DNA from: Branchiostoma floridae
Lineage: Eukaryota > Chordata > Leptocardii > Amphioxiformes > Branchiostomatidae
Assembly: GCF_000003815.2 (NCBI RefSeq)
Contig: NC_049995.1
Coordinates: forward strand, 2,144,296-2,208,295
DNA length: 64,000 nucleotides
Reading direction: 5' to 3'
In this document: positions 1,070 through 21,801 of the stretch, one piece after another
Position numbering within the stretch: position 1 is the stretch's first letter
Layout of the letters: each line of letters starts with the position of its first letter
Program-made: the position numbers and the translations under genes
The notes under the pieces: model-generated
Told to the model about the DNA's origin: nothing
Databases searched by the model: none
The model's input: only the letters and a program-made list of their open reading frames with translations

Positions 1070-1147
1070 CCCCCGTCATCCAATCCCAGTTGTCGTATTC
1101 TGACAGTTACTACAACTTCTACAGCAATGACTACACTTATGAAGAAG
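1070..1147 (+). CDS. Linker exon before CUB (Tyr/Asp/Asn-rich)
   Basis: Acceptor at 1068-69, donor GTGAGT at 1148, phase 1 to 1. It encodes a Ser/Tyr/Asp/Asn-rich linker ([17 protein letters not shown]...) ending in Glu-Glu that joins in frame to the CUB exon. No domain is recognised; it may be the stalk following an unseen upstream exon. Confidence 0.6.
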
Positions 1148-4100
1148 GTGAGTAGCAAACCTAGTAAGAGTTAACTACTAGAAAGTCTAGATGGTTGCAC
1201 ATTAACTTATCACGAGTTTTATCTGATGAGTATTATTAGTCAGCAAACTGTGTACATGTACAGTTTTTTTTTCACATGAGTAACAAGAACCATGCTTTTG
1301 TGTTTTCAAGTATTTTCTTCGTTCGTCACAGCCAAGGGGGGGGGGGGGGTATTGATGTGGATTCATAACAGTCTTCAGGAAAAGATTTGGCCCTTTGCTC
1401 ATAGAGATGAAGTAACAATCCAGTCATTTCACCATTTGCTATTTCTATGAAATTTGATAAAGCGGCTGCGTCCATATACCTCCATCTTCATGGACCAACT
1501 GACCAAATTATTCTTATTACTGTCTTACTACAGTCTCCTTCCACACAAATGATTGTACTTTCCCTTGATAGATTGGCATATTTTCAAACTTTGCTGACTT
1601 CGATTTCAACAATGAGGTTTTATTGCTACTTCAAACCCATTTCTTTACATCAATTAGATCTTATATTATTCAATGCATTTCCATGATTCAATATTCATAA
1701 ATGATGCTGATCTGATGACGTCATTGGTCAAAATCCAAGATGGCGGACCATATGATCAGCTCAAGGATAACAAGGTCCCTTGAATTATCGTCAGTACCTT
1801 GTATTTTAGTCTATATCGATTGTTTTTTGGGGGTTCTTTGTGGAAAAAATATTTCCGAAAATTCAAGATGGTGGATCCAAACGTGGCGGATCGCAGTTGG
1901 TAGCTTAAATATGAATGACGTCATGTTATGACAGTTAAGCCCGGTCTATATAGGGTTATTGTACGTATCTCTCATTCTTTAGAGCCCAGTACTCCCGACT
2001 GTGGAGAAAACCTGTTTGCCCCCTCTGGAGGCCCTGTGACGTCACCGAACTACCCCAGTAACTATGGCAACAATGAGAACTGTGAGTGGAGCATCACGGT
2101 ACCAGAAGGAAGCATCATTCGTCTTATGTTTGACAGTTTCAACATTGAGCACAGTTATGACTTTCTAACTATCTACGATGGAGCCAACGATAGTGCTCCG
2201 CAGTTACAAAGGTAAGGTAGTAAATACATAAACAATACATTTCTAGCGCATAATAATGTGTGGGACATTGAAGTCCTCTATTTCAAATCATTCTGGATAC
2301 CAGAAGGAAAAGAGGTTAAAAACGTAAGCACAGTAAATATAACCTGGTTGTGTACAAGAATTCTCCTATACCCTATATGCTACCAACCCGATGAAATTAT
2401 TTTTCGGACGTTTAAAACCACACAATATTTTGGAACGTGCAATTTTTACTATTTTTTCCTCGCTGACCAGGTTAACAGGCCAGCAGCCAGTCAGCCCTAT
2501 CACCAGCACATCTAACATGATGTTCTTCAGGTTTACATCTGACAGAAGTGAAACTCGTCAGGGGTTCCAGTTCTCCTACATAAGTAAGGTCTTCATTACA
2601 CTTCTCACAGTAATTATGTTCTCAGTAGTAATATGTGCTTCAACAACAGGCTTAAACATCAACCTTGTCTTCCTTATGTTTAATATTGTACTATCTAACC
2701 TTGTCCTTACCTCCTTTGCATATCATGCATGGCTAGTGTATAAAACCTGCTCAGTGTCACAGATGAAAGGTAGTGGATGCTACCTAAAACGTCTGACTGT
2801 TTCCAAAATCATATCCAGTTGCTTGAGTAACTGCTATTTGGCATATCCTATTACCTGGATAACCTCCATCGACGTAATAATGCTATCCTTCGATATTCTG
2901 TACATTATAAACTTGCTTTCGGTTTCCTTTTGGAACTGCATGATATCCTACAGGAAATAAAGGAATGACGATCCAGTCACGGCGAGGAAGGAGATTCAGA
3001 ACTTTTGTATGGTTCTTGTTTCAGGCAGTACCCCAGGTCATTGCTGGGATCCTGGTGTGTCGACCAATGGTTACAGGGATAACAACAGTAACTTCACATC
3101 AGGACAGACCGTCAGGTACAGCTGTATGGCCGGGTACCAGGTGTGGGGGAATGCCAATATCACCTGCCGGACGAACGGGACATGGAGCGATGCTACACCG
3201 ACTTGTAAAAGTAATACAAAAATCTTCAACAACCGATCAATCTCTACAATCGGATACGGTTTGGCGTCCATCAGTCTTCTTAACAACTGGAAGAACCAAT
3301 CAGGTCTAGAAGAGTGATGGATGTCACTCGAAACGTCCGGAAGTAATATCCGAACATTATCCAGTTGTAGAGATCGAACCGTATTGAAATATTTGGCGTC
3401 TAACCTTCGTAAATGTAACACAAAGCCAAATAAAAGGTTTAGGTGTATATGGTGATTTATAACGCCATTTGTAATAACCACAGAATTAATCATTTTGAAG
3501 TGGTTTATGCCAAAAAAACATTATTACACATGGATCCTTTGAATAAATATCTAATGCAACCCTATATCAAATTTCATGTGTTTTGGTTGTAATACCAGGG
3601 TGCAAGGGGACAAAATATACATATCGGTCTGCGAATGACCAAGAAAACTCCATAAAATCCGGGGTACGGCCCACCACAATTGTGATGAATTGCAGGTCAT
3701 TCGGCCCACAAGGACAGAGATGAATCGATCCAAAGATTAATGACAGGAGAATAAAAAAAACAGGAGAGGCAAGATATTTCAAACCATACCTATGATGTAA
3801 ATGTTCATTATATAACAGCCCTGAGGAGAGTCCGTCTTGTTGGAGGTTCCGTGCCGGCTATGCCGAACGAAGGACGTGTGGAGGTCCGGTCAGAAGACGA
3901 CTTCAACTGGGGCACAGTCTGCGTCGACCATTTTGACATGGGGGATGCAGACGTTGTTTGCAGAATGTTGGGGTATCTGAGAGCCAGCCGATTCTATGAA
4001 GTTTCCTTCGGTAAAATGTTATCTTCTGTTGCCTCGTGTGACGACTTCTTTTCATATTAGTATTGTGAAACAAATCCAGGGAGGTTTGTTATGTTTTCTA

Positions 4101-7100
4101 ATGACTAAATGACATTAGAGTTTCCTTTTACACAGCCAGTTCTGTCTCTCACCTAGCCTGGCCAAGCGTCGATGTCTATCAGACATCTTACTCGGAGCTT
4201 CTAACAGGAGTTCTGTTTCTCACCGCTTTATGTGGCGATCTTGCAGCGTGAACACAATCCCAAACGTGGCTAAATTTGTATCCCCCCTCGTCCCGGTTCA
4301 TCACAGGGGGTGACTTTCTTATCCAGACGGCATCCTTGAACGTAAGGAGGTGAGAGACATTTCTGGTTAATAAAAGTAAAGGAATACTCCAATATCTTAT
4401 GTCCAACCAACCTGAAATTATATCAGAATGTATAAATATACTTTTGTAATATTCCAACTTTGAAGAAAATATAGGAACAGGGCCGATCTTCATGGATGAC
4501 CTAGGATGTGCAGGGAACGAGAGTAGCCTGTTTAACTGCTCGTACCCAGGATGGGGGATTCACGACTGTCGTCATAGCGATGATGTCGGAGTTGTCTGCG
4601 GTATGTTGATGCAACATTTTGTTCATTTTAGTATCATTTCAGAACAAACACCTGCTTAACGGTAATAGGAATAATTTAGAATAGACTGCGACGATTAAAA
4701 CTAGACCAAAACTCACCCAATTTGATAAGGCATTTTGATCAAAACATTCTACCATTTCTGTTGTTAGACGCACATAACAAGAATTGTTAGAAACAATGAG
4801 AAATATATGTAAACTGTGGAAGTTACGGTAGACCAAAGATTGTCTAAATTAGAAAAGACTAAGGCCTTCAAAGGTTCAAAGAAATCTGTCATTTAAAAAC
4901 AAATGGCCGGTGATTACCGACGAAAAAAAACTTTGTTGATAGTTTGGACCAAGGCAATTTGTTCTTAACCTTTATATTTTTTTGCATCTTTAGCTTTATT
5001 TTTTTTCTTATTTTTCGCTTGGTTTTTACAAGATAATGTGCTTAGATCCCAGCAGAATCCGTCTCATCGTAGGTTCCAGTGAAAACGAAGGCCGTCTGGA
5101 GGTCCGGCCGGACAACAGTTTCACCTGGGGCACGGTTTGTCAGGACCAGTTTGACATGAGGGATGCTGACGTGGTCTGCAGAATGCTGGGTTATCCCGAG
5201 GCTGACCAGGTTCGCACTGATGCCAACTTCAGCCAGGGTAAGATAGTGTTTACAGATGTTTATGTATATATTACACTCCTTTTATGTTTGGGACCGCATT
5301 GTAAGCATAGTTTAAAATTCATGATATACTGTGTTCGTGGGGATTTAAAAAGAACTTTTCGCGGTGGTTTTAAGTTCGCGGTAGCACCATGCACTATAGT
5401 CTCTTACTGCCATGGAAAAATAGTCACGGTGGGTTTAAGTTCGCGATGAAGCGGCCACCGCGAAAATCGCGAACATTAAACCACCGCGAAAGTTTCTGCA
5501 TTTACAGCATATTATTACGTAAAACTAAGTTTAGGACCGTGCGTGAGCTGACCCCCGCATGTTCTAGTGTAATGTGAACCAGTCAGTATTGTCAATCTTG
5601 AGGGGTGACAGTCACCGATATGTCCGTTCCAATAAAGTAATCTTTTTTTATAAACTTCTACAATGAGTCATATTATGTTTTCATGAGCCATATTTGACGA
5701 AATACTAATTCGTACTGTTCCAAAACAGGAACAGGACCCATATACATGGATGACCTACAATGTGCTGGGAACGAGAGTAGCCTGTTCGACTGCTCGTACC
5801 CAGGATGGACCATTCACGACTGTGACCACGCCCAAGATGTAGCCGTGGTCTGTCTTACAAGTATGTTAGAATAAAAGCTTCAAAATAACAAGCTTCAAAA
5901 CATGGTCAAATTGGATTGATGCATTGAATTTACCCTGTGTAACGTAATAGTAAAGAATGAAAGCAAACGTAAAAAATATGTAACAAACAAACAAACACTT
6001 TTAAAATTTGTAAACGAAAAAAATCAAACAAAATCTAATATGGTAACATAAAAGTGAGCAGGAGAGGTCAGATGTCATCATAGAATAATGGAAACATATA
6101 TAGTCAGGGCTAATATGAAAAGAAACTCAAAGTAATGATATTGGACAAAATTGAATTATCTTTTAACTTCATCAAATTCAAATGAGTGGACAATTAGCAA
6201 TACTGACTAATTCTTGTATATAGTAGTGAAGTATCATCAAAAATGACATTTCATTTCTAGATTCCAGTAGAATCCGTGTTACCGGAGGCTCCGGCCCGCA
6301 CGAAGGACGAGTGGAGGTCCGACCGTCTGACAGCTTTAGATGGGGAAGAATTTGTCTCGACCATTTCGACCTGAAAGATGCGGACGTTGTTTGTAGAATG
6401 TTGGGCTACCCAAGCTCCCAACAAGTTCGCCATGCGGATAAATATTTTGGCAAAGGTAAGATTCACGTCTACAAGTAAGATCATGTTGATTTGATTCTGT
6501 ATGCCCTGGGTACCAGACAGAGTCGGGTAGCTAGCGAGTTTCGTTCGGGGACGCATGGCAGTCAGCCCGCCGATCTCACATTAGCGCTAATAGGAGATCG
6601 GCGGGCCTAACTGTCTTGGGCCGCCGAATAAACTGCCCTAGCTGCCCGATCCCGGCTGGCCCCCAGGGTAGATTGATGACATCCACGTGCGCATCGATTT
6701 TCATTTGTTATCACAAAAAAGAGAAATGAGAAAAGTTTTCGATCATGTAGAAAATCGTACAAAGAAGTAGTAAAATGAGCAAAAAGTATGCGAAAACAAT
6801 ATCGGAAAACGTCTAGTCACGAGGGTGATGATGTTTGGAAATAAAGTCCATACCATTTGTCAGTTTTTTATTGAATTTACTCCATCCATTTTATGAACTA
6901 AAGCATACTTTCTGTTTTAGATTTCGGAGCAGCGCCAATGTACATGGATGAACTGCGCTGTGATGGGACCGAGAACAGCCTGTTCAACTGCTCGCACGAA
7001 GGGTGGAGGATTCGTGACTGTGTCCGACATGTCGGAGTTGTTTGTGGTACAAATACATGTTCAGTTTGTTGTCATATCCTGGCATGTCTCTGTGGCCGAG

Positions 7101-10100
7101 TGGTTAAGCATCCCCGCTGTTCGGTAATTTGGATCCAATTCATTGGCCTGAGTTCGATCCCAGGGTCGGCTCAGCTCGGACATGTTGTATGGGATTGCAT
7201 TCGTCTTTCGAAAAGGGCCTAAACTGGGGGTCAGTTCAGTTCAGTTTAGTTTATTAATGACAGCAGTTTTGCAAGTAGCCAAGGCTACTTGAATTGCACT
7301 GTAGTTTACACTAAACAAGGCATTACCATAATCTGTACATTAGCAGCAAACATTCTATTGTTTTAAAATCATACAAAAACATTTACTAATCTTAAACAAC
7401 AAACCATATGCATCATGTATCAAGTTGGCAGATCGTCATGTTTTTTGGTATGTAGGCAGCTTACATGATGCCGCGATTTTTAATGTTGGCTAGATTCTCT
7501 TATGCCGGGAAAAAGAGTTTGCCTTGGAAGGGAGTTTGCCTTGGAATGTAGTTTCGCCCCGTTGCACAGCTTTACAATTCACTTATTTACTATAAACTAG
7601 CTTATTAGTTAATGTCATTACCTACGGCATATATTTGCCCTTTTTACAGCTGCTTTGTGGGACTTGCAAAACTTTTTTGGGGTAACGGCCGAAAATTGAT
7701 GTGCTCGCATCCATATAATCAAAGCAACATGGCCTAACAAAACTACATGTACATGTTTAGATCCCAGCAGAATCCGCCTTGTCGGAGGTTCCGGGCCAGA
7801 CGAAGGACGTGTGGAGGTCAGGCAAGATGGCGGTGTGACCTGGGGGACGGTTTGTCACGACCAGTTTGACTTGAAGGATGCAGACGTTGTCTGCAGAATG
7901 CTGGGCTACCCAAGTGCTCAGGCAGTTCGTAATGACGCCTATTTCGGCCAAGGTAAGATTTACCGGAACCCTTGTGTTGTTTTCTGTAATTTTCTTGTTT
8001 GATATGATGTATGAAACATGTTCTTTACTAATTATATAAAAGTTGTCAGGTCATGAGCGATACATTGACATTAGGATGAAAGAACAAGCTTTTCGAAACA
8101 ATAGCAACATTATTCCCAAGCTTTCGCCAGCTAGCAGACCTACAAAAACAAATTTTTAATAGAACCACAAAACCCACTAGCCATAAAAAATATGGGACTT
8201 GTCCCATATAGTTCATGCAGATTTGCATAATTAATGACAAACATAATTAATACACCTGTTGGATAGGTAAAATCATTTAGCGAAGGTATAATGTCATGGA
8301 ACTATAGTTACTATGTGAATTCTATGATCATCTCTCGTCATATTTTTGTATTTACTTTCTTATCATGCTTCTAAAAGGACAAGGGGAGATCTTTATGGAT
8401 GATCTACGATGTGCTGGGAACGAGAGTAGTCTGTTTGAGTGCTCGTACCCAGGGTGGGGGATTCACGACTGTGATCGTACCCAAGATGTAGGCGTGGTTT
8501 GTGCAGGTATGTTCGCTAACATGGACTGTTTGATTTTTGTAGCAATGTTAACGTGTTTATTTGAAGACATAATGAACATAGAATCTTTTCGGCCTATTAG
8601 TATACGGGTTGTATTTGTCAGATATCGAATTTTTTTTATTTATGAAGACTCACAGAATGAGATCATTATCTTGTGGCTTGGTCCCTTGGTCAACAACAAT
8701 ACCCCATCCTCCTACGCAGGGACATCCAACAGCGAAACCGTCTAGCCTGTGGATGTACCCTGCTTTCTCAACCGTCACTCTTTAGTTCCTGTGGACGACC
8801 CCCAAAACCAGCTGTCAGCTAATCAGAGAATAGGCCTTTTAGTTTTCAAAAGGCCATATAAGGATATAAGGATATATAAGGATATATATATAAGGATATT
8901 AAGCTCATTAATATCTTTAAGCAGGGCGGTCAGGAACTAAGGGTGGCGGTTGAGAAAGCAGGGTGCATCAACAGGCGGTTTCGCCGTTGGATGTCCCTTC
9001 GTAGGAGGATGCAATACCCGGAGGCCTACTGACCATGATGCGATCCCAGGGTTGTGTCCTTTACATGGCCGGCACCTCCAGAGTACAGTTAACGACAAAT
9101 TAACCCTATCCAGACTGTGCTTTTTTGGCATTCCCTGGCCTGGGGGGTTGGGGGAGGGTGATGGGTTGGTTGCTCATTCGGCCCCCCTTCGTAATTTCAA
9201 AACGGCTTACTGTACGATCACCAAATTTGCAGGGGTTGATAAGCTCGTCAAGTTTTGTAATTCCTAATTTTTATACCATTATGACGTTATATGACGTAAT
9301 TATGACGTCATTAATTGATTTTTTGCTAAAACGGGTTGTTTGTTACTTAGGGAAATCTTTCCTGCTGGTTTCTCTCTTAACGAGTATTCTCGAATACGAC
9401 GGGTCAGAGGTCACTGTTACCGCATCAAAACTGCCCCGGATCTTCTCCCTGGACTACGACCCTGTAACTGAACTTGTGTACTTTATATCTAACGGGGGCA
9501 TCAGAAGGATTGGTCGTGATGGAAAAAGGATGGAGACCATTGTAGATAGAGTATTTGCCTGTGGGTGCCTTTCCTTCTTCCTTTCTGTTAATTGTTACCG
9601 TTCAGTATAACGTTGCAATATATACGTTTGTGAAGGTTATGATAAATAGATGATGGTTCAAACTCTTCTTCTGGATAATATCAAATTTTTTATCCAGTCT
9701 GGATAGGGTTAATTTGCCTTCCGAAACGTCTGGATAAAAATTTTGATATTATCCAGAAGAAGAGTTTGAACCATCATCTATTTGTTACAATATATCTTTC
9801 AAATATCTTTCAAATATTTCATCTATTAATGCTAAAGAAATAGATATCCATTGACATATAGTAAGATGCGCGCATTGTAAAATTGCTGGGAAACTTCAAT
9901 GCTACATAGCATTTTCTAAACGTTATTTAAAAAAACGTGTCTTTTCTTGAAATTTTCTTCTCTTTTTCTTACTGAAACTTGCGTACGATAATATGTTTTC
10001 AGCTGATGGCTTGAGGTTGGACCACGCTGGGGGGAATGTGTATTGGACCATGGTACGCACCATCTCAGTAGCCCGGGCGGCAGATGGTGAATCCTACGTC

Positions 10101-13100
10101 AAGACACTTCTGACTACCGACTCGCCTAGCGGTCTGGCTCTGGACCCCAGAAACGGGTACTTTCTACTCTCCAATCAGAGGTTGAGTCGTGTAGATATAG
10201 TAGTANNNNNNNNNNNNNNNNNNNNNNNNNNNNNNNNNNNNNNNNNNNNNNNNNNNNNNNNNNNNNNNNNNNNNNNNNNNNNNNNNNNNNNNNNNNNNNN
10301 NNNNNTGCCCAAAAGTTGGTTCGGCGTTTGCCGGATCCACCAGACTCACCCTCTGCTTGGAGAATAGGTACTTTCATCGTATAAACAAAAAGGATTACAA
10401 ATGTAAAAACCAAATGTATACGAGGGGAAGTCCTAAATGATAATGATAATAATCTTTATTGCACGTTCAGGCTAAATGCACAAAGGACTACTCTCCAAGC
10501 AGAGGTTAGGCTCCGGCTGTTTGTTTGTTTTTTGGTCGTTTTTATCGGGCTTTCTATTTTTTTATTTTATCTTGCTGTGTCTAAACTTAAGTTTGGCTGG
10601 CGTACTTCAAGAAAAATGACAAAAGAGAAAGCCCGATAAAAACGACTAAAAAACGGCCGGAGCCTAACCTCTGCTTGGATAGTAACAAAGGACCACATGT
10701 GGTCTAATGGATAAAAAGGAAGAACTAAAACTTATACAGTAATTTCAAACTAAACTAGATGAGAAATGAACTAAAACATCGTGTATTTTTGTAGAATACG
10801 TCATAAACTATTGTTAACCGCTACATCCAATATTTTAAAACACGTGGAGATCATGATAAAGCAAAGCCATTAAATTCATAACAAGTTCATTTTTTAATCA
10901 AAAGTAAGTTTTTTTTCGTCAATCAAGGATGCAGTCTTCTCCAAAGAAGAAAGGCCATTTGAAACTGATAAAGAAAACTGCAACTTTATCCCGAAACCCT
11001 GGAATTGTTATCGGAGAAATCAAGTTTTTTTTCCTTGGAGAAATCTACATCGAAATTAAACAAAACGCACTCTTCATTTGTTCTTCATTCAGTTCTTAGA
11101 TAAGAATATGTTCTATTACCTCATGTTTATGACTGGTGTATTTTCATAGACTGATGTACTGGACGAGCGACGGTGGTAACGCCAGAGTTGACCGTGCTGC
11201 GATGGACGGTAGCAACCATACTACCCTTATAAGGGGCCTGCATAGACCCCGGGCCATTACAATAGACTATACAGGTGGGAAAACGAACATCAGTGAAACA
11301 TAAATTCTGGTAAGGTTGCAGGAAGTCTATGGCATCCGCTGTCTCTGTTCAGGGATGGTTGTAAAGCTCTGATGTAGATGGCTTCTTTGATCCCTCTAGC
11401 GAAAATGTCTGGTTCTATGTATAAGATTTTAACTTTGTCCAGTGAGACTAAATGACCCGTTCGCATGGGCGCCATATTCGAACTTATGATCCACTGCTCA
11501 CTGAGTCACATGTTCTATCTGCATAACGTTGTTAGTTTTGAACAGTGTGATGCACATGTGCATTTGCACATAAAGTAGGCCGCCCCCAATTATTCAGCCC
11601 CACTTCGTGCAGCACCCTTCAGCTGCCATTACCTGCTGCAGATGGAACGGTGGCCAGTCATAAGCTTCTGGCAGGACTCTTTGCAATTTGGGTCCATTCC
11701 TCGTGGGCAATACATAATGGTTTCCATCTCAGCAATGTTATGCGGTCTACAAGTACATGCCGCACCAGCTTTCTTCAAATCCAACTAGGGCCTCAGCCTG
11801 CATACTGTGATGGCTACTCAAGAACCTCCCATTTCTGCTCTATCCAAGCCTTATATCACCATATGATTTGATAATGATATGCAGCTAACGTTGTAATGTT
11901 CCTCATTTTGCCCAAATAGCCATAATGTGGTGTAATTTTGCATGCAACCTGTGTGTGTGTGTGTCTTTGCAAAATGTAAATGTATTGTATTCATCCCTTT
12001 CAGAGGATCGATTGTACTTCTGTGATGGTTACAAAATCTACAGCTCAGACCTCCAGGGCAATTACACACTGTTCCAAAACGATATGACTTATAAAGTCGG
12101 AATTGCGGTGGATGATAACTACGTTTACTGGGGGTCAATTTGGGAGGAACGTGGAATCCGAATGTGAGAAATCTTCTTCACCTTTGAAATTTCTCCTTGT
12201 AGCATATCAGTAATCAAGAAATGGAGATCATTTAATCTTATAAGAAGAGGAAGCAGTCGTTATGTGCGTTTTCCCTTTGTCCCATCGCCAATGTTGCTAA
12301 CATGTGGTTTGCTACTATATAACGCTAGTTCACCTTTATCTGCGGGGTAACCTATATCCGTTACTTTTGGCAAAAAAAAACATACCTAGGAATATCACGT
12401 CGACGGACGGTGGTTTCAAACTACAATATATTTGTAACTTGAAAAAATTCAAAACCACCGATTTGACATCCCTAAACACGCTGTTTTTTAAAACAACGGA
12501 TTTCGGTTACCCCGCGGATAAAGGCGAACTAGCTTTACCACATTTCCAGGAAATCCAAGTCCAGCACCAATCAGACTTTTACTACTATTATGGCTGATGA
12601 CGTTTCACATCCTGTGGACTTCTACGTGTCCACGGCGTCGCGTATTAACACAACCAATCATGGTAAATACTAGCGTTTGTGCGCTTAGTTTGTTTGTTTG
12701 TTTATTGAGATCTCCATTAGACTATTATTTATTGTTTTCTTGCGTTTGTGTGTAACAGTGTGGGTTTGTGGTTAAACCGCAAGCACAATCATAGTCGATC
12801 AATTTTAGGTTTTGTTCTATCCAGATCACATCCTCACTCCCTGAGGCTTCCTCCCAACTTGGCTATACAATCTGTCTTACATATGTTTTTACGTTAGGGT
12901 GTTCTTCCTTCAATGGAGGGTGTCAGGAGCTGTGCCTTTCGCATCCGGAGGGAATCAGGTGCGCCTGTCGAGACAACTGGGAACTGCAGAAAGATGGAGT
13001 AACATGTGAGTATCTTGTCTCTGGTATCAGCGGTCGGATGATGATTTTTTTTTTCTATTTTGCTTTTGGGCAGACGAGGACAATGTGGCACTGAACTCAA

Positions 13101-16100
13101 GTTTGTTACTTATATTGCCACATACACAGAACTGACAAAAGGTAAAGGTACTAGTCTTTTCGTTCTTCTACCTCCCCGACCGAAGTCAAGTACCCATTGG
13201 GTGAAGTGTCCTCGTGTAGAATGCCTCTTTCAAGAACACACGGCGGGTATCGAACTTGGGACCTCTAGATTCCGAGTCGAATGCCCTGCTGGGGGCGAGT
13301 ACAAGCCTCCCGGCATACATTTCTTTCCCGGCATTTTTCCTTTCCCGGCATATTTTCCTTCCCGGCATATTCTCAGTTAAAAATCGCGAAATGACCTACC
13401 CGCCAATGCCCCCTGAGAGGCCTGTGAAGGAGGGCTAACCAGTTGTGCCACACACGATCCCATTTGCACCGGTGCCCATTGGGGATGCAGTCCCGACCGG
13501 GCTCCGAAGCCACAAATTTGTCTCGGTGGACTGCCGTGCTAGGGGAAAACCTTACCGTGATTTCTCGATTAGGTCATGGTCTGTAAACAAAGTTTCAAAG
13601 TAAGGCTCGACAAGTTGATGGAGAACCACCCAGTTTTGTACGACTATAAAGCCTTGGACGACCCTCACAAACCAACCATCACAGTCAGCTGAACGCAGAG
13701 TGAAAGAAGCAGTTTATGATGAGCCGTTCCATATGCATGGGGTGTGAACTCCTTCTCAACCGAAAGAAGTTTACTCTACTCTACTCTTGTTACCGGGTCC
13801 GGGGTTGATTTTAACAGTGATATAGAAAGCCAGGGACCCAGCCGGGCCCTAAAATAGCCCAGGAGCCTCAGGGTTTTCCAAGGGGCCATGTAGGGGTCAC
13901 GCCCGAAAGTAAAGAAAAACAGCCCCTAAACTATCCGGAGGGACCCCTTTCCTCAGCCCCCAGCCAAAGTCACGTATACACCTTTGTGTAGTGAGGAAAG
14001 CCGGGTAAAGTGCATTTCCAGATTCGAACTCGAAACCTCACGGTCATGAGCCAAATACGCTGCCGCTGCGCCGCGCGATCTCACTTATGGCACAATAGGC
14101 TGGCTATTAAGTAGAATTCCACTGGTATAATGTATTAGAAAGTTATCAGCGTGGATTAAATAGTGTACATGACGGATAAAACCAACATAAATTCCATTTC
14201 TAAAGCAAAACGTACCTTTGTTGTCATAGGCTGTCTTTCTGGCTACACCACATACGCTGGTGCATGCTTCAAGGCCTTCAACCAAGAAAACACCTACGAC
14301 AATGCAAGACAGGTGTGTGAAGCGGACGGGGGGATGCTGGCCTTGCCGAAAGACAAAGACGTGAGCAACTTCTTAAGAGATCTAAAGAATGCCGTCAGTG
14401 AAAGCTCACGTTTCTGGATCGGCCTGAGCGATCAGAAGGACGAGGGTGAGTGGATGTGGGAAGACGGGACTCAACACGACACCATCGGGGACTGGAGCAA
14501 CTGGCAGCCGGGAGAACCTAACGATAACCAGGGAGTAGAAGACTGTGCGAACTACGGTGGTTCCGGATGGAATGACGCACCGTGCTCCTCTACTTATAAG
14601 TTCATCTGCCAAATGGAAAAAGGTATTCCACGAAACGTTTTGTAAAATTTTACATTGAAGGTTTTGAGGCTGGATTTGGTACATTTGCTTCTTTAATTTT
14701 ACTGATACGTTGATGAATTGTTTCTGATCCTACCGTCAAAGTGTGTGATTTCGACTGGTCTAAATGATAAGAATGATTGATTTTAAACTTACGTCTCTAT
14801 GTAAATCTGCATGTAAGTGTCCTGTTGTTGTCCAGATGGAGCATAATTGATTAGAACAACCCTAAATAACTCATTTGTGGACTATGTCCGTGCACAGCAA
14901 TAACCTGCTCTCTGGGATACTTCCGCTGTGGCCACGGTCGCGCGTGTATCCTGTCATGGAAGCGGTGTGACGGGATCTCTGACTGTACGGATGGGAGTGA
15001 TGAAGTGGGTTGTGGTAAGTCACTGTCAAGGGGTGATCCGGTGATGTTTTAAGTTAAAGTTGCCGGTGCATCGCAGATGCTTAAGGTTGAACCCATCTCC
15101 ATTTCTGTAGCCCGTGGGCCACACAATTGTGCAAGTCACTACAGCAGGGGGCTGGTCCACTGGTAGTGATGTGTGTTTAACTTCCATACTCTGCCTCATT
15201 AGTGCTGAGTGCTAAGTGGATAAAGCATCATGTACCATCTTTTAAGTCTTAGGTATGACTTGGCTGAATGCAAGACGAACACTCTACTGTCTACCCAATC
15301 GGCAATTGCAATAGTCCATTGAATGATGCACGATGTACGTATACGGTCTTCACAGACAAAACAGACGGCCGATATCAACTAATGTCTTTCTTTCCTATGT
15401 TGCAGCTACCTACCGTTCAGAATCTCTGTCTTCTAATCAGTATCAAAACCAGTGAAATGGCATAATCCATTTCTTTGCCAACTTTTCAGTATGTCAGCCA
15501 ATACCTGGAGATTTTCAAATCGACATCAGACTGGCCATGCTGCCGAATCAGCTGGGCCAGACGACGTTTGAGGAGGTCCAGAACTCCTCTGTGGTGGAGC
15601 TGCTCAATAGTTCGTACAGCAGCTCCGGAAACTACCACCCGGAGTTACGGAAATTCGTTTCGACGGTCATTTTCCCGCAATGCAATGTCACAGTACAGAA
15701 CAATACCGACTGCTATTCGTCTTCAAATGTAACCAACATGATCTCGTGCATGTAAGTAGGAAAATATTATGGGAAAGATGTTCTAAAATAACGTTTTAGT
15801 TTTGCTTTAGGAAAGTAACAAGTTTAACATAAGCCTCTAATGCCACTTGATCATTGTCGTATTGAAACGTATACGGTCACTTGAATGAAGCCAGAAACAT
15901 ATGCATCAGCAATACTAAGTCGGTTATCACACTTGCTTGGTAGTAACAAACACCACGTTTTCAGGTGGCGGCGTGCCAATACGTATATACGTTGATCTCC
16001 AAGCAGATCCTACGGTCGCATAAGATGGTATCAAAAACTGGCAAAGTGGTGTAGCCAACATTGGAGTGTGCATTGGCTCCAAGACCGGCTACACTCCTTT

Positions 16101-19100
16101 GCGAGCTTTTGCTACCGTAGGATCTGCGTGGAGATTATCGGTACTTTATTTACTTATTAGGGGTCTGCAATACAGTGGAAGGTATGAAGAAACAGGTGTT
16201 TCTGGCTAGTATACCCATTTTCAAGGCTGCCATACGTATGCTAAATCCGTAAATGTTTCATAGGGGAAACGTCACGGGCACACAACTGGTGCCATGCCGC
16301 TCTTGGTGTGAAGAGGTCCTCAACATGGCCGCTGACTGGATGAAAGTCCTGCTGCCTCGATGCAAGCTGTTTCCATCGTCCAAACACGGCTGCTGGAATC
16401 CTACTTCAGCCAAGCTGGGAAACAAAGGTGAAAGTGAACACTTTCATCGGTAACTTTTACGCGAAGTAGTATTTGACTGCCATGACTGGATATATCTAGC
16501 TTAATGCGCGGCCGGCCATCTCTTGTGGTAGCGAAATTCCCCTGGCAATTTTGTCTCCCAATATTAGCCAGCTTAGTCAGTCTGGTAGAGACTAGAATAT
16601 ATCCGACAAACAGATATATGCCGCTGTGTGCCTCGACCGGGTATAACCGAGATAGAGTGTTCCCCTGAAGATAATTAAACACCATTGCCCACGTGTAGCG
16701 CCCGAAACTACTTAGTATCACCTACCGATACTTGTTCGCTTGTCTTTCATAGTTTGCTACCATGGCAACGGCATAAACTACCGTGGCACATGGAGTAAAA
16801 CTACATCCGGGGCAGATTGTGTGGAGTGGTTGGCTGAGCAATCTGGTTACTACAAGACAGAGTACCCCTGGGCTAACCTGGATAACAACTACTGCCGCAA
16901 CCCGACCGGGCTCGATCGGCCATTTTGTTTGACAGACGACGGTAGCCAGGAGGACTGTGACGTCATTCCTTGTGGTAAGGTGTCTCATGAGGAAAGAGTG
17001 ATTGAAATACTTGCGATCATAACATGACACATGTATATTGAATGCATACTGTATATGCATTTAAGTTCGCTGGGATTTGATTTCGCGGTGCCGGGGAAAT
17101 GGAGTGTTCGCGGTGGTTTTGAGTTAATTCACGTTAGCTTCATCAGTGAACTTAAATGGCTTTACAGTTCTGTACTTTTACTCTCCAAGCAGAGGTTAGG
17201 CTCCGGCTGTTTTTTTCGGGCTTTCTATTTTGCACTGAAATCTTGATAACTCGCGGTCGGAACCTAACCTCTGCTTACATAGTACTGTACGGTAGTCGCG
17301 TACTGTAATAGAACACCCGGCGCCTCTGCGAACTGCCGAACTGAACACTTCTTACTGGCTACTCGGCAAGGATGCTTCAAACAGACAGAGCATAAAAAGA
17401 ACTCGAACATAAAACCACCGCGCAGTTTCTGCATTTACAGTATCTAATCAATGATGATTTTGCCACTTTCTGTCACGTGTTAATACATTAGATGCCGATG
17501 GCTGTTGGGACAGAGGCCCTCCAAACTATGGCAAGAGAAGCCCAAGCAAGAGCTTCTACTTCGTGGACGAAAGAGTCACGTACACGTGCAACGAAGGCTA
17601 CACACTGAAGTCCGGTTACACCAGTGAAGCGAGGTGCATGTTAGGAGGCGATTGGCAATATGACAAGCCCAGTTGCTCAGGTGGTTGATTTGTAGAGTGT
17701 CATCTTTTGCAACATATGAATCCTATACAACTTTATTCAAGCCTAAGCCTGTTTTAGTTTGCAGCTGCAAAATGTTATTGGCATATCAAGGGTTAAATGG
17801 AAGACGAATATGCCAAAGACTAAACCAACCCTTTGTCAAGCGTTCTCCTAACATGTTTGTTTAACTAAACATGGAATTTTATGCAAGATTAGAAATACTA
17901 CAATGAGGACTTGTGCACTATTTCAAAATATTTTTCTCTTCCCGTGTGTATAAGGCAACATATTCTTATGGGTTCAAAAGAATGTCGCTTTCAATCTAAA
18001 ATTGGACTAGTTTCCGCATAATGATTTTCCTATTGACTTACACACTTACATTGATGCAGTAAACCATCGACGAAGGCTGCAAGAGGAGCTACTGGAGATT
18101 TACAGTGCCAGCCTTGCACCTGAGAATGTCGTCATCAACTTCACTGGATCTGTGGAACAGATAGTCGACTTGGCAAGTACTTTATCTGTTACTCACTCAA
18201 TACCCCGTTATAATATTGGCATGGAATTACTTCTTGGAGCAAAATGCATATCTAAATCCATGTTGTAACTTTCATTTCAGGATGAAAAGAAGGAGCAGCT
18301 GGTTGCATCTGTCGCCATCGACTTCGTAAGTTGGCACAATTATGAGAGCTTTACTTTAAATACTTTTGTCGTTAAGTTCTTTTGCGTAGTTTGTCATAGT
18401 CTGGAATAGACTGGCTGACATAGAGACTTTAAACACCCCAGTAATACAGATGATCAATGTTTTATTGCAAATGTATGATCATGGGGATAACTGCAAGTGA
18501 ATAAAATCAAAATCTAACTTACTAACATAAAGTAATTGAATATGCGGGCTAACTACAAGTGATAATGACCAGACCCTGTCGATATTAATCCGGATAACAA
18601 AACTATGGACTTCAGTATGACAGCCGTGCGGTTTAGATCGGTGGAGATTTCTCTAAGACAGTTTACCAAGTACAAGTTACTCTTCAAGTCGCCTTTTAAA
18701 TATACAGACAATAGATAAGAAATTGTATGATGACTGCACATAAAGAACTTTTTTCCCCAGAGGTCTTTCAGACACCGTGGGAAACTTTGATGTCATTTCG
18801 ATCTTGAGACGTTGACATCTTCTTTCATGATTGTTCCTTTTCTTAGACATGGCAAGACAGCAGACTGAGTTGGGATCCGAAATACTACGATGACATCACG
18901 TCACTCAACATTCTGGGCGACAGCATTTGGACCCCAATATTGACCTTGAAGAGAAAGTAAGTTATCGCTTGTATTCAATTTCCCCATTTTAGATTATTCA
19001 TTGTATGCATCACATGTACAATATACATATCTAGGCGCGGTTTTTGACCGTTAACTGAACTGGGAGGACCAAGTGAAAGCCATATTAAAGGAAACTGAGG

Positions 19101-21801
19101 AATTCAGTAATTATGATGAAACAGCTTAAAGTAACAGAAACAACCAAAACGAACGGACTCGAATCATGTAGCACATGTTACATACCATGTATATGTGAAA
19201 AAATAACCAAAGACATGTTGGTTACTTCGCAGTGCCAATCCACACAGCCTACAAAATGATGTCCCGGTCCGAGTGAGCAGCAATGGCCAGGTAGCCTGGA
19301 ACGTAGAAACCCAGACCACCACCGTGTGTGATGCAGACCCCTTCTACTTCCCTGCAGACACCATGGAATGCCACATCTGCTTGTCTGCGATCGCAGCAGT
19401 GGAGCAAACTATTCGTAAGTTCTGTGAATAATTATTACCTATTCAAACGATTCACGAGGCTTCTAAATTTTCGTTCCATAGGCAATATTTCTAAAAGATA
19501 TAAGCTATAACTATAAGCTGTGCATTTGTGGGCAAGAGAAGAAAATTATTCAACAAGTGGAGACCAGATTTCGCAATTCTAATATCTGGTACATATTATA
19601 TCCTGATGACAATATAAAAAAGTAATGGGGGAACCATTTTTACCTTCGTCAAAAGGTTATATTTTGAGCGTATTTATCTGTGCGTGTGCCTTTGATGGAT
19701 CCTGCAGGCCTGATGATATTTGGTAGGTTGGTAGGGGTCAGAAAACCTAAACTCAAGTTCGATAGTGGACCTCTAGAGGCTTTCTAGGGTACTGCAGTGC
19801 AACTATGTATGACATCTCGTGTTCTGGACATGCTGTTTTAATGATTTGGAAAGGGAATAAGTGTGGTAGGTTTGGGCCCCCTAGCGGCGTTTTTAGAACT
19901 GCAGTTCCTAATTGTCTTTCAAACTTTGAACGACAATAACTCAAGAACTCATTGACGGATTGTCGTGAGTTGTGAGTCGTGTTTTGAACAAATAGAATGC
20001 CAAGGAGCAGACAAGGGGAACAGTCCATGCAACTCTTACTCTGATGTAACAACGGAGGGTGAATGGCGTAGAAATGACCAGATATTTGCGAAAGACAACA
20101 GAGAAGCTTGCTTTGTTGTCCATCTAAAGAGGATCCCCCTGCTCCACATCGCCACCACTGTTGGACCCTGCATCATCCTGGTTGTCTTGATGACAATCAC
20201 ATTCGTCATGCCCCTGGACAGGGGAGACCGGATCTCGTTCGGACTGACCATTCTGCTCTCCATGGTCGTGTCTCTTGTATTTGTGACGGACGTTCTTCCT
20301 GTTAAGGGGGCTCTGCCATTTTTCGGTGAGTAAAATAGATATAAACCTACTGCATTGTTTTTAGGATGTTTTTAAGTGTCACTTAAGGTTGTTCTGATGT
20401 CGCTTTCTCAGCATTCTGGTAACTGTTTGCCATTGTGACAAACTAAACATTCCCTAACTACCACCAAAGAAAGTTGGGACTTAGCTGAATTTTCGGATGA
20501 CTCCGTCGGCCTTCTTCACGGAATGAACCCATCTACTGCAGTTTCCGGGACGTGGCGTCGAAAACACGTGACTGCGGCAGCCGGTCATTAGTGCCAGATA
20601 ACCTATGTCACCCCCCGTCTCTGTGTAGTGCTGGACGGCGAGCTCGTATGTCATGTTCCGGAAGCTGTAGTAGACAGGTTGTCAGCGCAAAAATTGGGTA
20701 AATCCCAAGTGTTGGTTGGGTATTTAAAGTTAGTATGATATGTCATTTACCAACACAGATCGCGATCGATTAACGTTGATGCTACTTTTTTGCCATAATG
20801 TTACAGCTACGCTGATCATCGTGTGCATGGGGCTGATGGGAGTTTTTCTCCTTCTCACCATGGCCGTTATCGTTATTCACGACCGAGAGGGCAGCCTGCC
20901 TCCGACGGTGAAGGTTATTTTTTTCCGACACATTTCAAAGTAATTACTATTCGTTACAACATTTCTTATCATTATTTCGGCGATATCTTTCTAACCTCGA
21001 AATACATTCGTTTATCCCAACCCCGTGATTCGACAAAGTTTCACATTCACTTAATGGCATTCTCTAATGAGGATTTTACATTACAATCTAGCTTTCTTTA
21101 TATCTGGACATGCTATGGTCAAGATTTTCAAGCGGTCAGTAGTTCTTGAGAGGAAGAGGAAGTAGTTTGAGTCCCCTGGCGACTTCTTTCGGGGCCCAAT
21201 TTTGTTTCAATGTTTGAAAGAGAAAATAACGTCATGGAGAATTGTATGATCGTCATGAATTTTGGTTTACAGAAAGCACAATTAAAAACTTTCCGTTGGC
21301 GCCGTTCAATTCACGTCCTTTTTGTTATTTAGAATACTGCTGTTGGGTGATCTAACAGAAAAGAAGCGCCCCTGTGATGAAGAGGCCGACCTGACTGACT
21401 TCCCTGCCACAGAGTTGGAGGCCGACCTGACTGACTTCTCTGCTATAGAGTTGATCAACAACGCTTTTCAAACCCATGACAAGGCGGAAGTCAGCGACGA
21501 AAGACCCTGTGATGGCAGTGAGACAACCAGGCAGCCATCAACTCTTCTCGCTGGTCTGGTACCCACCCGTTCAACCGCCCTTCTTGAGTTGATTCTTAAT
21601 CTTAAAGGGGTAAAGAACGAAGTCAAAGATCTCGCAAAGGCGGTTGATAACAAGAGAGAGGTGCTTAAGAAGGTTATGATGAGTGAGGATGAGGTGTCTG
21701 AATACATCCTGTTGGCTAAAGTCCTGGACAGGCTGTGTCTTGTTCTGTACATCATCAGCATCGCGGCAGCCGTTCCCATGACTATGTATTTAGGGAGGTA
21801 A
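1070..21801 (+). CDS. Mosaic ectodomain fused to a nicotinic-type Cys-loop channel subunit (31 exons, 5' partial)
   Basis: The 31 exons listed below join without a frame break into about 1,828 codons ending at TAA 21,799-21,801. In-window residues: linker 1-26, CUB 27-140, Sushi 141-202, SRCR x4 203-630, LDLR-type propeller 631-884, EGF 885-920, C-type lectin 921-1051, LDLa 1052-1090, Frizzled CRD 1091-1232, kringle 1233-1306, Sushi 1307-1369, Cys-loop receptor 1370-1828. Nearly all ectodomain modules are bounded by phase-1 introns, the signature of exon shuffling, while the channel part keeps the 45-nt and 110-nt exons of nAChR genes. The start codon and signal peptide are upstream. By family knowledge the product would be a plasma-membrane pentameric channel subunit with a very large extracellular part; its ligand is unknown. 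No signal-peptide exon is visible between the last Sushi and the channel exons, which argues against two separate genes. Confidence 0.85.
1983..2583 (+). CDS. CUB domain (two exons)
   Basis: Exons 1983-2211 (phase 1 to 2, donor GTAAGG) and 2471-2583 (phase 2 to 1). Diagnostic text: [38 protein letters not shown], and [18 protein letters not shown]. The first disulfide pair is present, but the second CUB cysteine pair is missing. CUB domains bind proteins, often through calcium. The intervening intron has no other feature. Confidence 0.92.
3025..3210 (+). CDS. Sushi/CCP domain 1
   Basis: Single phase 1-1 exon. The four Sushi cysteines and the late Trp are present ([32 protein letters not shown]). 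Symmetric phase makes it a shuffle-competent module. Confidence 0.93.
3819..4600 (+). CDS. SRCR domain 1 (group A, two exons)
   Basis: Exons 3819-4010 and 4475-4600, each phase 1-1. First half has [24 protein letters not shown] and [11 protein letters not shown]; second half has [27 protein letters not shown] and ends DVGVVC. A domain split between two exons is typical of group A scavenger-receptor cysteine-rich modules, which bind proteins or polyanions. Confidence 0.93.
5046..5860 (+). CDS. SRCR domain 2 (group A, two exons)
   Basis: Exons 5046-5237 and 5729-5860, phase 1-1. Motifs: [34 protein letters not shown], then [19 protein letters not shown] and DVAVVC. The intron between them carries a MITE at 5333-5511. 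Confidence 0.93.
5333..5511. mobile_element. CGCGGTGG MITE copy 1
   Basis: Contains CGCGGTGGTTTTAAGTTCGC and its imperfect inverse, ending TTTCTGCATTTACAG. A hairpin-forming, non-coding short element; four copies occur in this window. Confidence 0.75.
6261..7046 (+). CDS. SRCR domain 3 (group A, two exons)
   Basis: Exons 6261-6455 and 6921-7046, phase 1-1. Motifs: [37 protein letters not shown], then [16 protein letters not shown] and VGVVC. It is the most diverged of the four copies (Gly-Arg-Ile in place of Gly-Thr-Val before the first Cys). Confidence 0.92.
7084..7250 (+). repeat. tRNA-derived SINE
   Basis: Intronic. A-box-like TGGCCGAGTGG at about 7,092 and B-box-like GAGTTCGATCCC near 7,151 are spaced as in a Leu/Ser tRNA. 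The acceptor stem does not close and a T-rich tail follows, so this is a SINE head and not a tRNA gene. Confidence 0.6.
7761..8506 (+). CDS. SRCR domain 4 (group A, two exons)
   Basis: Exons 7761-7952 and 8378-8506, phase 1-1. Motifs: [37 protein letters not shown], then [19 protein letters not shown] and DVGVVC. Nearly the same as SRCR 2 at protein level, so probably a tandem exon-pair duplication. Confidence 0.93.
8707..9012. mobile_element. Foldback MITE
   Basis: Inverted arms of roughly 85 nt (8,707-8,795 and 8,929-9,012) read ctcctacg...ggacatccaacag...gcaggg and its reverse complement. The loop includes an AT-rich AGGATATA tract at 8,860-8,897. No coding sequence. Confidence 0.7.
9351..12662 (+). 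CDS. LDLR-type YWTD beta-propeller (five exons)
   Basis: Exons 9351-9560, 10003-10156, 11150-11274, 12004-12163 and 12550-12662. Blade motifs run LVYFIS, NVYWTM, LMYWTS, RLYFCD, YVYWGS, each with an upstream LALD/ITID-type strand ([24 protein letters not shown]). That is five YWTD-like blades plus a closing segment ending NTTNHG, as in LDLR/LRP propellers, followed directly by an EGF. The donor of the first exon was set at 9,561 (GTGGGT) because it is the one giving phase 1 with the next exon. Such propellers bind extracellular ligands. Confidence 0.88.
9645..9783. repeat. Near-perfect palindrome (intronic hairpin)
   Basis: Arms containing GATGGTTCAAACTCTTCTTC and its reverse complement, continuing through ctggataatatcaaa, surround a loop of roughly 30-40 nt. 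It lies between the first two propeller exons and is probably a foldback or palindromic MITE. Confidence 0.75.
10206..10305. other. Assembly gap (100 N), intronic
   Basis: The gap begins 50 nt after the splice donor at 10,157 and does not interrupt the propeller coding sequence. Confidence 0.95.
10488..10684. mobile_element. Foldback element, family A
   Basis: Terminal inverted arms read ctccaagcagaggttaggct at the left and its reverse complement at the right, with inner matches gggctttct / agaaagccc. A shorter copy is at 17,181-17,284, and elements with related ends lie at 15,995-16,137 and 25,217-25,373. Confidence 0.75.
12320..12537. mobile_element. MITE, TAACGCTAGTTCACCTTTAT family, copy 1
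   Basis: Begins AACGCTAGTTCACCTTTATC and ends with the inverse form GATAAAGGCGAACTAGC; an internal stem (accaccg / cggtggt) is also present. Diverged copies lie at 28,259-28,446 and 51,214-51,433. All three are intronic. Confidence 0.75.
12898..13005 (+). CDS. EGF-like domain, LDLR/LRP type
   Basis: Phase 1-1 exon: [31 protein letters not shown]. Six cysteines with the NGGC...LC pattern characteristic of the EGF that caps LDLR/LRP propellers. Confidence 0.93.
13150..14095 (-). repeat. SINE-like repeats, minus orientation
   Basis: At 14,025-14,090 the minus strand shows a tRNA-like head (box A near GCGCAGCGGCAGC, anticodon-loop-like CTCATGA, box B GGTTTCGAGTTCG). It also contains the GAGGAAAGCCGGGTAAAGTGC motif (reverse of a stretch seen near 47.2 kb). 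A second similar B-box lies near 13,250, and a short CCCGGCAT tandem repeat spans 13,308-13,372. The region is a cluster of nested repeats with no gene. Confidence 0.5.
14230..14622 (+). CDS. C-type lectin-like domain
   Basis: One phase 1-1 exon of 393 nt. It has [35 protein letters not shown] and [10 protein letters not shown]. The EPN triplet and WND are the calcium and mannose-type sugar ligands known from this family, so sugar binding is plausible. An upstream in-frame ATG at 14,163 lies before the acceptor and is not the start. Confidence 0.95.
14898..15014 (+). CDS. LDL-receptor class A domain
   Basis: Phase 1-1 exon: [37 protein letters not shown]. Six cysteines and the calcium-binding DxSDE motif are intact. 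Confidence 0.96.
15490..16427 (+). CDS. Frizzled cysteine-rich domain (two exons)
   Basis: Exons 15490-15751 (phase 1 to 2) and 16264-16427 (phase 2 to 1). Motifs: [47 protein letters not shown]. Several N-glycosylation sequons (NSS, NVT, NNT) are visible. In other proteins this fold binds Wnt-type ligands; here the ligand is unknown. The intron holds a foldback element. Confidence 0.95.
15995..16137. mobile_element. Foldback element, family B
   Basis: Arms ctccaagcagatcctacggt / accgtaggatctgcgtggag with inner gtagccaac...ttggctccaagaccggctac. Related to the element at 25,217-25,373. Confidence 0.65.
16753..16974 (+). CDS. Kringle domain
   Basis: Phase 1-1 exon: [55 protein letters not shown]. 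Six cysteines are present; Phe replaces the usual Trp before Cys 5. The Frizzled-kringle order resembles ROR kinases. Confidence 0.95.
17047..17445. mobile_element. CGCGGTGG MITE copy 2 with nested foldback element
   Basis: Ends are TATGCATTTAAGTTCGC and TTTCTGCATTTACAGTA, as in the copies at 5,333-5,511, 25,791-25,998 and 42,712-42,849. A family A foldback (17,181-17,284) is inserted inside it. Confidence 0.7.
17492..17680 (+). CDS. Sushi/CCP domain 2
   Basis: Phase 1-1 exon: [41 protein letters not shown]. Four cysteines and Trp are intact. It is the last ectodomain module before the channel; the next intron is only 379 bp with no visible signal-peptide exon. Confidence 0.93.
18060..19414 (+). 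CDS. Cys-loop receptor ligand-binding domain, N-terminal part (four exons)
   Basis: Exons 18060-18172, 18281-18325 (45 nt), 18847-18956 (110 nt) and 19233-19414. Reads [62 protein letters not shown], then the Cys-loop [15 protein letters not shown] (13 residues between cysteines, F-P-x-D kept) at 19,327-19,371. Exon sizes of 45 and 110 nt and the break before DEK match nicotinic receptor genes. The first intron needs a GC donor (GCAAGT at 18,173). The loop B aromatic motif of nAChRs (WTY) is not present after the Cys-loop. Confidence 0.93.
19996..20325 (+). CDS. Channel exon: loop C, M1 and M2 pore helix
   Basis: Phase 1-1 exon. Encodes the end of the binding domain (no vicinal Cys pair in loop C), M1 ([18 protein letters not shown]..., about 20,137-20,209, with the family Pro) and M2 ([20 protein letters not shown], about 20,225-20,300). 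M2 aligns with nAChR alpha7 without gaps: acidic residue at -1', Leu at 9', Val at 13', Asp at 20'. These features predict a cation-selective pore. Confidence 0.95.
20807..20939 (+). CDS. Channel exon: M3 helix
   Basis: Phase 1 to 2. M3 is [20 protein letters not shown], followed by [20 protein letters not shown], the usual post-M3 start of the cytoplasmic loop. The donor was set at 20,940 (GTAATT) because only this choice keeps the last exon open; the donor at 20,908 would give an immediate stop. Confidence 0.88.
21333..21801 (+). CDS. Channel terminal exon: cytoplasmic loop and M4
   Basis: Starts in phase 2 ([14 protein letters not shown]), contains a duplicated acidic 12-mer ([12 protein letters not shown] / [12 protein letters not shown]), a charged helix before M4 ([18 protein letters not shown]), then M4 ([20 protein letters not shown]) and ends MYLGR-stop at 21,799-21,801. 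A short extracellular tail after M4 is normal for the family. Confidence 0.92.

Follow-up and report, generated by a model that had tools for sequence, protein, structure and literature searches.

The locus analysed here raises the question of whether a Cys-loop ion channel subunit is continuous, in one polypeptide, with a long series of adhesive and receptor-like modules, or whether two neighbouring lancelet genes have been misread as one. To our knowledge, the general view of animal Cys-loop receptors is that they respond to small ligands and have a signal peptide alone before the binding domain. We analysed a window (the whole stretch of 64,000 nucleotides of Branchiostoma floridae DNA, C17:2144296-2208295) and extended the searches to the 513-Mb assembly of this genome (431 contigs). 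We conclude with little doubt that one gene encodes a single-chain Cys-loop channel subunit, composed of a signal peptide, about 1370 residues that are mostly exon-shuffled modules, and a 460-residue channel beginning near the usual mature N-terminus. With the same assurance, we regard it as a member of a large family, represented in this genome by 43 best-scoring channel loci.

Gene model and ectodomain modules

Within the window, 31 exons spanning positions 1070..21801 of the forward strand splice into a single frame that encodes, in this order, CUB, Sushi, four SRCR, an LRP-type propeller, EGF, C-type lectin, LDLa, a Frizzled-like CRD, kringle, Sushi and the Cys-loop channel (Table 1). This confirms the exon number, the frame and the module order given in a preliminary description of this DNA, to which a signal exon outside the window has to be added. 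The first exon in the window opens at an acceptor, hence the start of the gene lies upstream, and the signal-peptide exon was located at C17:2143864-2143921 (L009:9569-9626 in the upstream sequence), 375-432 bases before the first base of the window. It encodes MAAHSLSWATVICWLMFAT, followed by |G, and ends with a phase-1 donor; comparison of the upstream DNA places the equivalent exon, MAAQLFTAGLIYWLMCVT, in an inverted paralog, the two differing by one in-frame indel of 3 nt. Another signal candidate, MAVSLGVLLIFLAA (L009:5156), fits in phase, but Kazal-like exons intervene between it and the gene, and it was rejected and replaced by the L009:9569 exon because the latter is conserved in the inverted paralog. 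Rebuilt exon by exon and spliced, the final model comprises 32 exons, 5547 coding bases and 1848 amino acids, with a single stop and zero N; 1388 residues (signal peptide counted) precede the 460-residue channel.

All introns are GT-AG except one GC-AG intron (18172|GCAAGT; 18172-18281), which lies within the first part of the channel's binding domain. At the position of this intron, AST is found in 5 of the 15 loci read (the window gene, L033, L034, L035 and L049), with a reading of the GT-donor type in the rest. An assembly gap of 100 N (10206-10305) is intronic, exon 14 ending at 10156; a GT stands at the same exon end in the inverted paralog (RNG|GT), and in many propeller matches elsewhere a stop is present at just this point. 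A frame read straight through the gap was rejected on two grounds: the paralog's exon ends at RNG|GT, and with the corrected junction a propeller blade is regained, which leaves the frame complete. The exon encoding the intracellular loop (21333-21801) contains an internal duplication of two successive 12-residue copies. Exons judged by eye to be Kazal-like inhibitor exons, several of them in tandem, flank the channel gene on both sides (window 27104-30258, minus strand; L009:1884-6838, plus strand). In the open reading frame list, sequence resembling thrombospondin type 1 was noted by eye at 61460-62390 (plus strand), in nearly identical units arranged in tandem.

Table 1. Parts of the channel gene, and the low-identity channel matches found elsewhere in the genome. 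Positions are those of the window unless a contig is named.
Feature	Position	Strand	Evidence
Exon 2, N-terminal linker directly after the signal peptide	1070..1147	+	Splice sites, frame; conserved in the inverted paralog
CUB, 2 exons (1983-2211, 2471-2583)	1983..2583	+	Pfam CUB 95 bits
First Sushi	3025..3210	+	Pfam Sushi 39.4 bits
Four SRCR, 8 exons, two per domain	3819..8506	+	Pfam SRCR 364.5 bits, 4 stretches
LRP/LDLR-type propeller, six blades by eye	9351..12662	+	Ldl_recept_b 35.1 bits; LRP6 propeller-EGF chains E 4e-29
Propeller exons (5)	9351-9560, 10003-10156, 11150-11274, 12004-12163, 12550-12662	+	
EGF-type module	12898..13005	+	Pfam FXa_inhibition 40.9 bits
C-type lectin, EPN and WND motifs	14230..14622	+	Pfam Lectin_C 79.3 bits; motifs
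LDLa, WxxCDGxxDCxDxSDE motif	14898..15014	+	Pfam Ldl_recept_a 39.5 bits; motif
Frizzled-like CRD, 2 exons	15490..16427	+	Pfam Fz E 7.5e-6, under cut-off
Kringle	16753..16974	+	Pfam Kringle 56 bits
Second Sushi, membrane-proximal, joins the channel	17492..17680	+	Pfam Sushi; phase-1 donor at 15/15 junctions read
Channel LBD, 4 exons (113, 45, 110, 182 bp)	18060..19414	+	Pfam Neur_chan_LBD 102.2 bits; Cys-loop with FPAD, aromatic box absent
Pre-M1, M1, M2, M3, 2 exons; cation-type M2	19996..20939	+	Pfam Neur_chan_memb 69.6 bits
Intracellular loop, M4, stop	21333..21801	+	Frame to TAA at 21799-21801
Low-identity channels without module match	C2:26.4 Mb (five), C13:11.6-11.7 Mb (four), C9:5.02, C17:13.1, C7:6.3 Mb		

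The Pfam profiles CUB, Sushi (two), SRCR (4 stretches), Lectin_C, LDLa, Kringle, Ldl_recept_b, FXa_inhibition, Neur_chan_LBD and Neur_chan_memb all score above their own cut-offs. The Fz profile reaches 26.9 bits against a cut-off of 32.1, so we term the CRD Frizzled-like only: the Frizzled CRD announced earlier stands as a Frizzled-like domain and not as a full Pfam match. By itself it has no match in the PDB at E 0.1; CRD and kringle together match a ROR2 chain across the domain boundary (phmmer), and the kringle alone scores highest against plasminogen. For the propeller-EGF unit, the matches are single-unit chains of LRP6 (about 4e-29) and LRP4 (about 3e-25). The lectin matches domains of the mannose-receptor and DC-SIGN types, and in the window gene it carries both EPN and WND, the signature of mannose-type C-type lectins, which we take to form a calcium and sugar site; EPN is present in all four genes read and WND in three, the fourth having WKD instead. 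The LDLa motif of the window gene presumably provides a calcium cage and a ligand site.

The gene family and the Sushi-channel junction

A query with the channel part gave 133 matches in the genome, of which the 76 reaching M1-M3 were used (the other 57 are other exons), and a query with Fz, kringle and Sushi gave at least 149, of which 136 were used and 13 matches to the second Fz exon left out (139 of 950 candidates scored). The two sets were paired by script, a module match having to lie upstream on the same strand at no more than 30 kb. An upstream module was found for 51 of the 76 channel matches, and those modules that are present always follow one another as Fz, kringle, Sushi (51/51); this accounts for 130 of the 136 ectodomain rows. 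All 43 best-scoring channel loci (E 1.8e-31 or better, window gene counted) have upstream modules, 38 of them all three and 5 fewer; the distance is 23-29 kb at C3:9265565 and C11:103892, and within about 11 kb at the remaining 41. Among the 33 weaker channel matches, 8 have an upstream module, the kringle only, and one of these pairings is doubtful (C11:19799051, 23 kb), the module probably belonging to a neighbouring gene. The 25 channel matches without a module match comprise 12 of low identity (22-33%; Table 1), which we take as ordinary channels, and 13 intermediate ones, two of these at 59-60% identity (C2:27934099, C16:1676169). Given that 139 of the 950 ectodomain candidates were scored, the lack of a module match means little, and 0 of 12 is a weak control.

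Conversely, two sets of Fz, kringle and Sushi matches have no paired channel (C5:4746163-4749092 and C8:9517020-9519578, both on the plus strand; 6 of 136 rows), the one on C8 sitting just upstream of another, channel-paired set; either a channel was missed or these are ectodomains that have lost it. More distant channel exons (about 41-64% identity) were seen at C11:19.75-19.80, C11:14.77, C230, C2:27.9, C10:11.26, C4:3.96, C2:13.25 and C16:11.37 Mb, and seven of them are preceded by a kringle at a distance of 2.6-6.8 kb; the fusion may thus be more ancient and more widespread than the count of 43 loci indicates. Some members are near-identical (L053/L054, at C8:17.3 Mb and C256; C16:2.04, 2.35, 2.41 and 6.83 Mb) and may either have been duplicated very recently or be haplotypes left uncollapsed, so that distinct genes would number somewhat fewer than 43. 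A tree of the M1-M3 piece sets 20 fusion rows apart from 6 ordinary rows with support 100/100 (74 columns, unrooted, near-copies included, bootstrap not settled), a topology compatible with a single origin of the fusion family and short of proving it.

The inverted paralog (C17, about 2.077-2.102 Mb) stands head to head with the window gene, their 5' ends about 42 kb apart, and retains the whole order CUB-Sushi-SRCR x4-propeller-EGF-lectin-LDLa-Fz-kringle-Sushi-channel. The gene at C17:6.53 Mb reads Sushi-lectin-LDLa-Fz-kringle-Sushi-channel, with neither SRCR nor propeller in the 10 kb examined. When 42 of the 43 loci were tabulated, all but C19:1374360, a lectin was found at at least 15, a propeller at at least 14 and an additional kringle at at least 5, these being picks by eye from the search rows (18 of 150 lectin, 23 of 69 propeller and 8 of 150 kringle rows). 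A Pfam kringle search of the genome listed mostly unrelated kringles and cannot serve to test the family. The Fz-kringle-Sushi stalk thus seems to be general, and the distal part to differ between loci. Against the inverted paralog, dN/dS ranges from 0.04 to 0.39 across all segments and subsets, with 0.07 for the Sushi and 0.17 for the binding domain on either side of the junction; the highest value in the three paralogs compared is 0.59, for part of the propeller in the C4 copy. In the pairs compared, both sides of the Sushi-channel junction are under purifying selection, and as no segment exceeds 0.6 the arm gives no indication of diversifying selection.

The junction itself was sampled at 18 loci (the window gene, L033-L035 and L046-L059), three of which (L057, L058 and L059) were left out with their first channel exon unmatched or partial. 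At all 15 junctions read, the intron begins with a phase-1 GT (mostly CAG|GTGATT) and ends at an in-phase AG acceptor. Its length in these loci is 98-844 bp, and in the introns of 98 bp (C17:6.53 Mb) and 124 bp (C14) a gene end followed by a new promoter and signal exon would be hard to accommodate. Hydrophobic signal-like ORFs starting with ATG occur in 6 of the 15 introns, two of them with a phase-1 GT (L033, L047), and AATAAA or ATTAAA hexamers in 5, so that extra short transcripts may be produced. KVSALLT is common to the ORFs of L033 and L034, which are close paralogs; in L033 the sole phase-1 GT of the ORF makes a poor donor (TTA|GTTTTA), and the L034 ORF has none. No signal-like ORF above threshold was found in the window intron (17680-18060), and the stretch that aligns to the L033 and L034 ORFs shows gaps and no such ORF. 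A separate mRNA starting within this intron with its own signal peptide, the observation that was to overturn the fusion, is consequently unsupported, with no signal-like ORF in this intron of the window gene and introns of 98 and 124 bp in paralogs.

In the ordinary nAChR-like gene L062, the likeliest acceptor before the first mature exon is in phase 1; the modules therefore sit where a phase-1 intron is expected. Their probable point of entry is a phase-1 intron that, in an nAChR-like gene, separated the signal-peptide exon from the first mature exon, and strong 1-1 phase shuffling has been reported for lancelets, in a passage of PMC4284660.

Could both parts still be adjacent genes, a secreted mosaic protein and then a channel, that were duplicated together and are misread as one? 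Lancelet gene-prediction chimaeras are documented, sections of PMC4967905 describing gene models that wrongly join neighbours, and the signal-like ORFs or poly(A)-type hexamers of some junction introns would suit such an arrangement. We nevertheless consider it highly improbable, since both parts occur in order at 43 of 43 best-scoring loci, the shortest introns could hardly take in a terminator, a promoter and a signal exon, all 15 junctions are in phase 1, and a conserved signal-peptide exon is located at the far 5' end. With the order shared by the 43 best loci and the phase by the 15 junctions, chance adjacency or a prediction artefact appears very unlikely from the genome comparison. The covalent attachment of the module types to the channel, as originally proposed, is borne out by the 43 loci, the 15 junctions and the single frame, and may be called well supported at the level of predicted genes. 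The same sections of PMC4967905 mention a Neur_chan_memb architecture of B. belcheri (269420_PRF0), its domains unstated there, that is apparently restricted to Branchiostoma, which is unproven.

Pore and transmitter site of the channel

Both signature domains of Cys-loop pLGICs exceed their cut-offs in the window gene (LBD 102.2 bits against 26, memb 69.6 bits against 28.1). The Cys-loop has 13 residues between its cysteines and carries FPAD, of the Y/FPxD type that a passage of PMC4795631 names as the best pLGIC marker. M1 to M4 are visible in the sequence, the Neur_chan_memb match extending to position 225 of 233, and Torpedo beta, 5-HT3A and alpha-7 are matched in the PDB at about 8e-31 to 5e-29. 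The alignment to muscle-type and alpha-7 chains starts at about residue 3-6 of the mature sequences, and the arm is thus attached near the usual mature N-terminus.

An acidic residue at both -1' and 20' of M2 characterises cation-selective pLGICs. The M2 of all 20 rows compared has D at -1', S at 2', T at 6', L at 9' and V at 13', and position 20' is D or E in 19 rows and G in one; the window gene has D at -1' and 20', and its pore is accordingly of the residue type predicted to be cation-selective. The nicotinic acetylcholine ligand site is made of an aromatic box (loops A, B, C and D), with vicinal cysteines in alpha subunits. Here both the aromatic box and the vicinal cysteines are absent: the loop D position is A, V or I in 23 of 23 rows, that of loop A is K or Q in 27 of 27, loop B has no W in 33 of 33 (one F), and loop C is shortened, some genes being counted in two rows. 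The ordinary gene L062 keeps W, Y and W at the loop D, A and B positions, and YACC. In the sampled paralogs, the classical neurotransmitter site is thus predicted to be dismantled and the cation-type pore nearly invariant. The label nicotinic-type, under which the channel had been introduced, holds for the pore and for overall similarity and fails for the ligand site, where the aromatic residues and loop C are lost.

Possible functions and comparison with known systems

We propose that the subunits assemble into pentamers that would display several arms around a cation-selective pore. Small transmitters would not open such a channel through the classical site, since that site is gone. Instead, a glycan or protein on a surface, in the matrix, or on a cell or microbe might bind the arm through the lectin, SRCR, LDLa or propeller modules, and the Fz-kringle-Sushi stalk might convey force or rearrangement to the upper end of the binding domain, from which the Cys-loop/FPAD coupling region, which is retained, would carry it on to the pore, whereupon ions would flow. 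Varying distal modules would confer different specificities, comparable to a contact-chemosensory or microbe-sensing repertoire; indeed, a repertoire of this size, with distal modules that vary, suggests that diverse targets are sensed. A single-chain subunit gated by macromolecules through its arm is the best overall explanation we can offer, and confidence and doubt about it are evenly balanced. As for the gating itself, it is plausible that these are subunits of cation channels opened by macromolecules bound to the arm, with the doubts slightly the heavier. We suggest only tentatively that this would amount to a new class of animal ion channels, a lancelet repertoire of some 40 cation channels in which arms of lectin, scavenger and LRP type would capture glycans or proteins and relay this binding to the pore, the transmitter site having been discarded; a use of such channels in contact chemosensing, or in the recognition of microbes and self, is equally speculative.

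Two other functions have to be weighed against gating by macromolecules. In one, the gene would encode a self-anchoring synaptic receptor, a single chain doing the job of LEV-10, LEV-9, LRP4 and MuSK by holding the channel at the synapse or matrix. The module types do overlap with those of these proteins, the propeller-EGF unit matching LRP6 and LRP4 chains and the CRD-kringle pair matching ROR2 across its boundary, and it is to this extent, the module type, that the parallel with clustering proteins drawn in the preliminary description stands; it does not extend further. Such a receptor would, however, be anchored with its transmitter site lost in every sampled row, and about 40 copies differing in their distal modules are hardly expected of it, so that we find it improbable. 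An accessory or structural subunit, co-assembling with ordinary nAChR-like subunits to supply an adhesive or regulatory arm while binding no ligand itself, would account for an aromatic box that is gone next to a pore that is intact, and an ordinary nAChR-like gene whose site is intact does occur in the genome. Yet the pore is nearly invariant across 20 rows, and so large a family, which the tree sets apart (100/100, on 74 columns with the bootstrap not settled), would need matching partners; on these indirect arguments we rate this role as rather unlikely. With about 40 genes, differing outer modules and an apparently erased transmitter site, ligand capture or sensing would fit better than synaptic self-anchoring.

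If gating through the arm is correct, a chordate family of about 40 genes would have kept the pore, dropped the transmitter site and added a recognition arm of some 1370 residues, and the channel fold could be coupled to macromolecular recognition. The family offers a concrete, expressible system in which to ask whether an attached ectodomain can gate pentameric channels. It also bears on the doubt, voiced in part of PMC4967905, as to whether such lancelet domain novelties are annotation errors.

With the nicotinic and 5-HT3-type Cys-loop receptors, the window gene shares the LBD and membrane domains, the Cys-loop with FPAD and the cation-type M2; its 45- and 110-bp channel exons are, we assume, as in nAChR genes. 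Unlike them, it has neither aromatic box nor vicinal cysteines, its loop C is shortened, and it adds about 1370 extracellular residues. ROR and MuSK receptors combine an Fz CRD and a kringle with a tyrosine kinase. As in ROR receptors, a Frizzled-like CRD is followed directly by a kringle in the window protein, but the kringle scores higher against plasminogen, the Fz domain falls under the Pfam cut-off, and no kinase is found among the Pfam matches, which sets it outside this class. LEV-10, LEV-9, LRP4 and MuSK are separate proteins that cluster receptors; some of their module types recur here, with a propeller-EGF unit resembling that of LRP4 and LRP6, but within the channel chain itself. 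Cephalopod chemotactile receptors are lineage-expanded, nAChR-derived channels for non-transmitter ligands and offer a parallel for the expansion of Cys-loop channels, in a different lineage; we know of no mosaic arm in them.

An added domain also precedes the binding domain in DeCLIC, a bacterial pLGIC described in part of PMC9897478, but the lancelet arm is an animal mosaic with about 13 modules and belongs to a large family of genes, in contrast to the N-terminal domain of a bacterium. Amphioxus Adhesion GPCRs, whose N-termini carry kringle, lectin, SRCR, CUB and LDLa according to a passage of PMC2246102, share with our family the lineage and the module types, placed on an unrelated membrane receptor, which has seven helices there and is a channel here. 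Domain associations of pLGICs are, in the relevant passage of PMC4795631, evidenced solely at the genome level; we found no description of such a module-channel fusion in the open-access literature, although it may have been reported elsewhere, and PMC6071037 contains no channel or module terms. Judged by its predicted domains, the window gene belongs, on its signature domains, with the Cys-loop channels; it is neither a nicotinic receptor by its ligand site, nor a ROR/MuSK receptor, nor a separate clustering protein.
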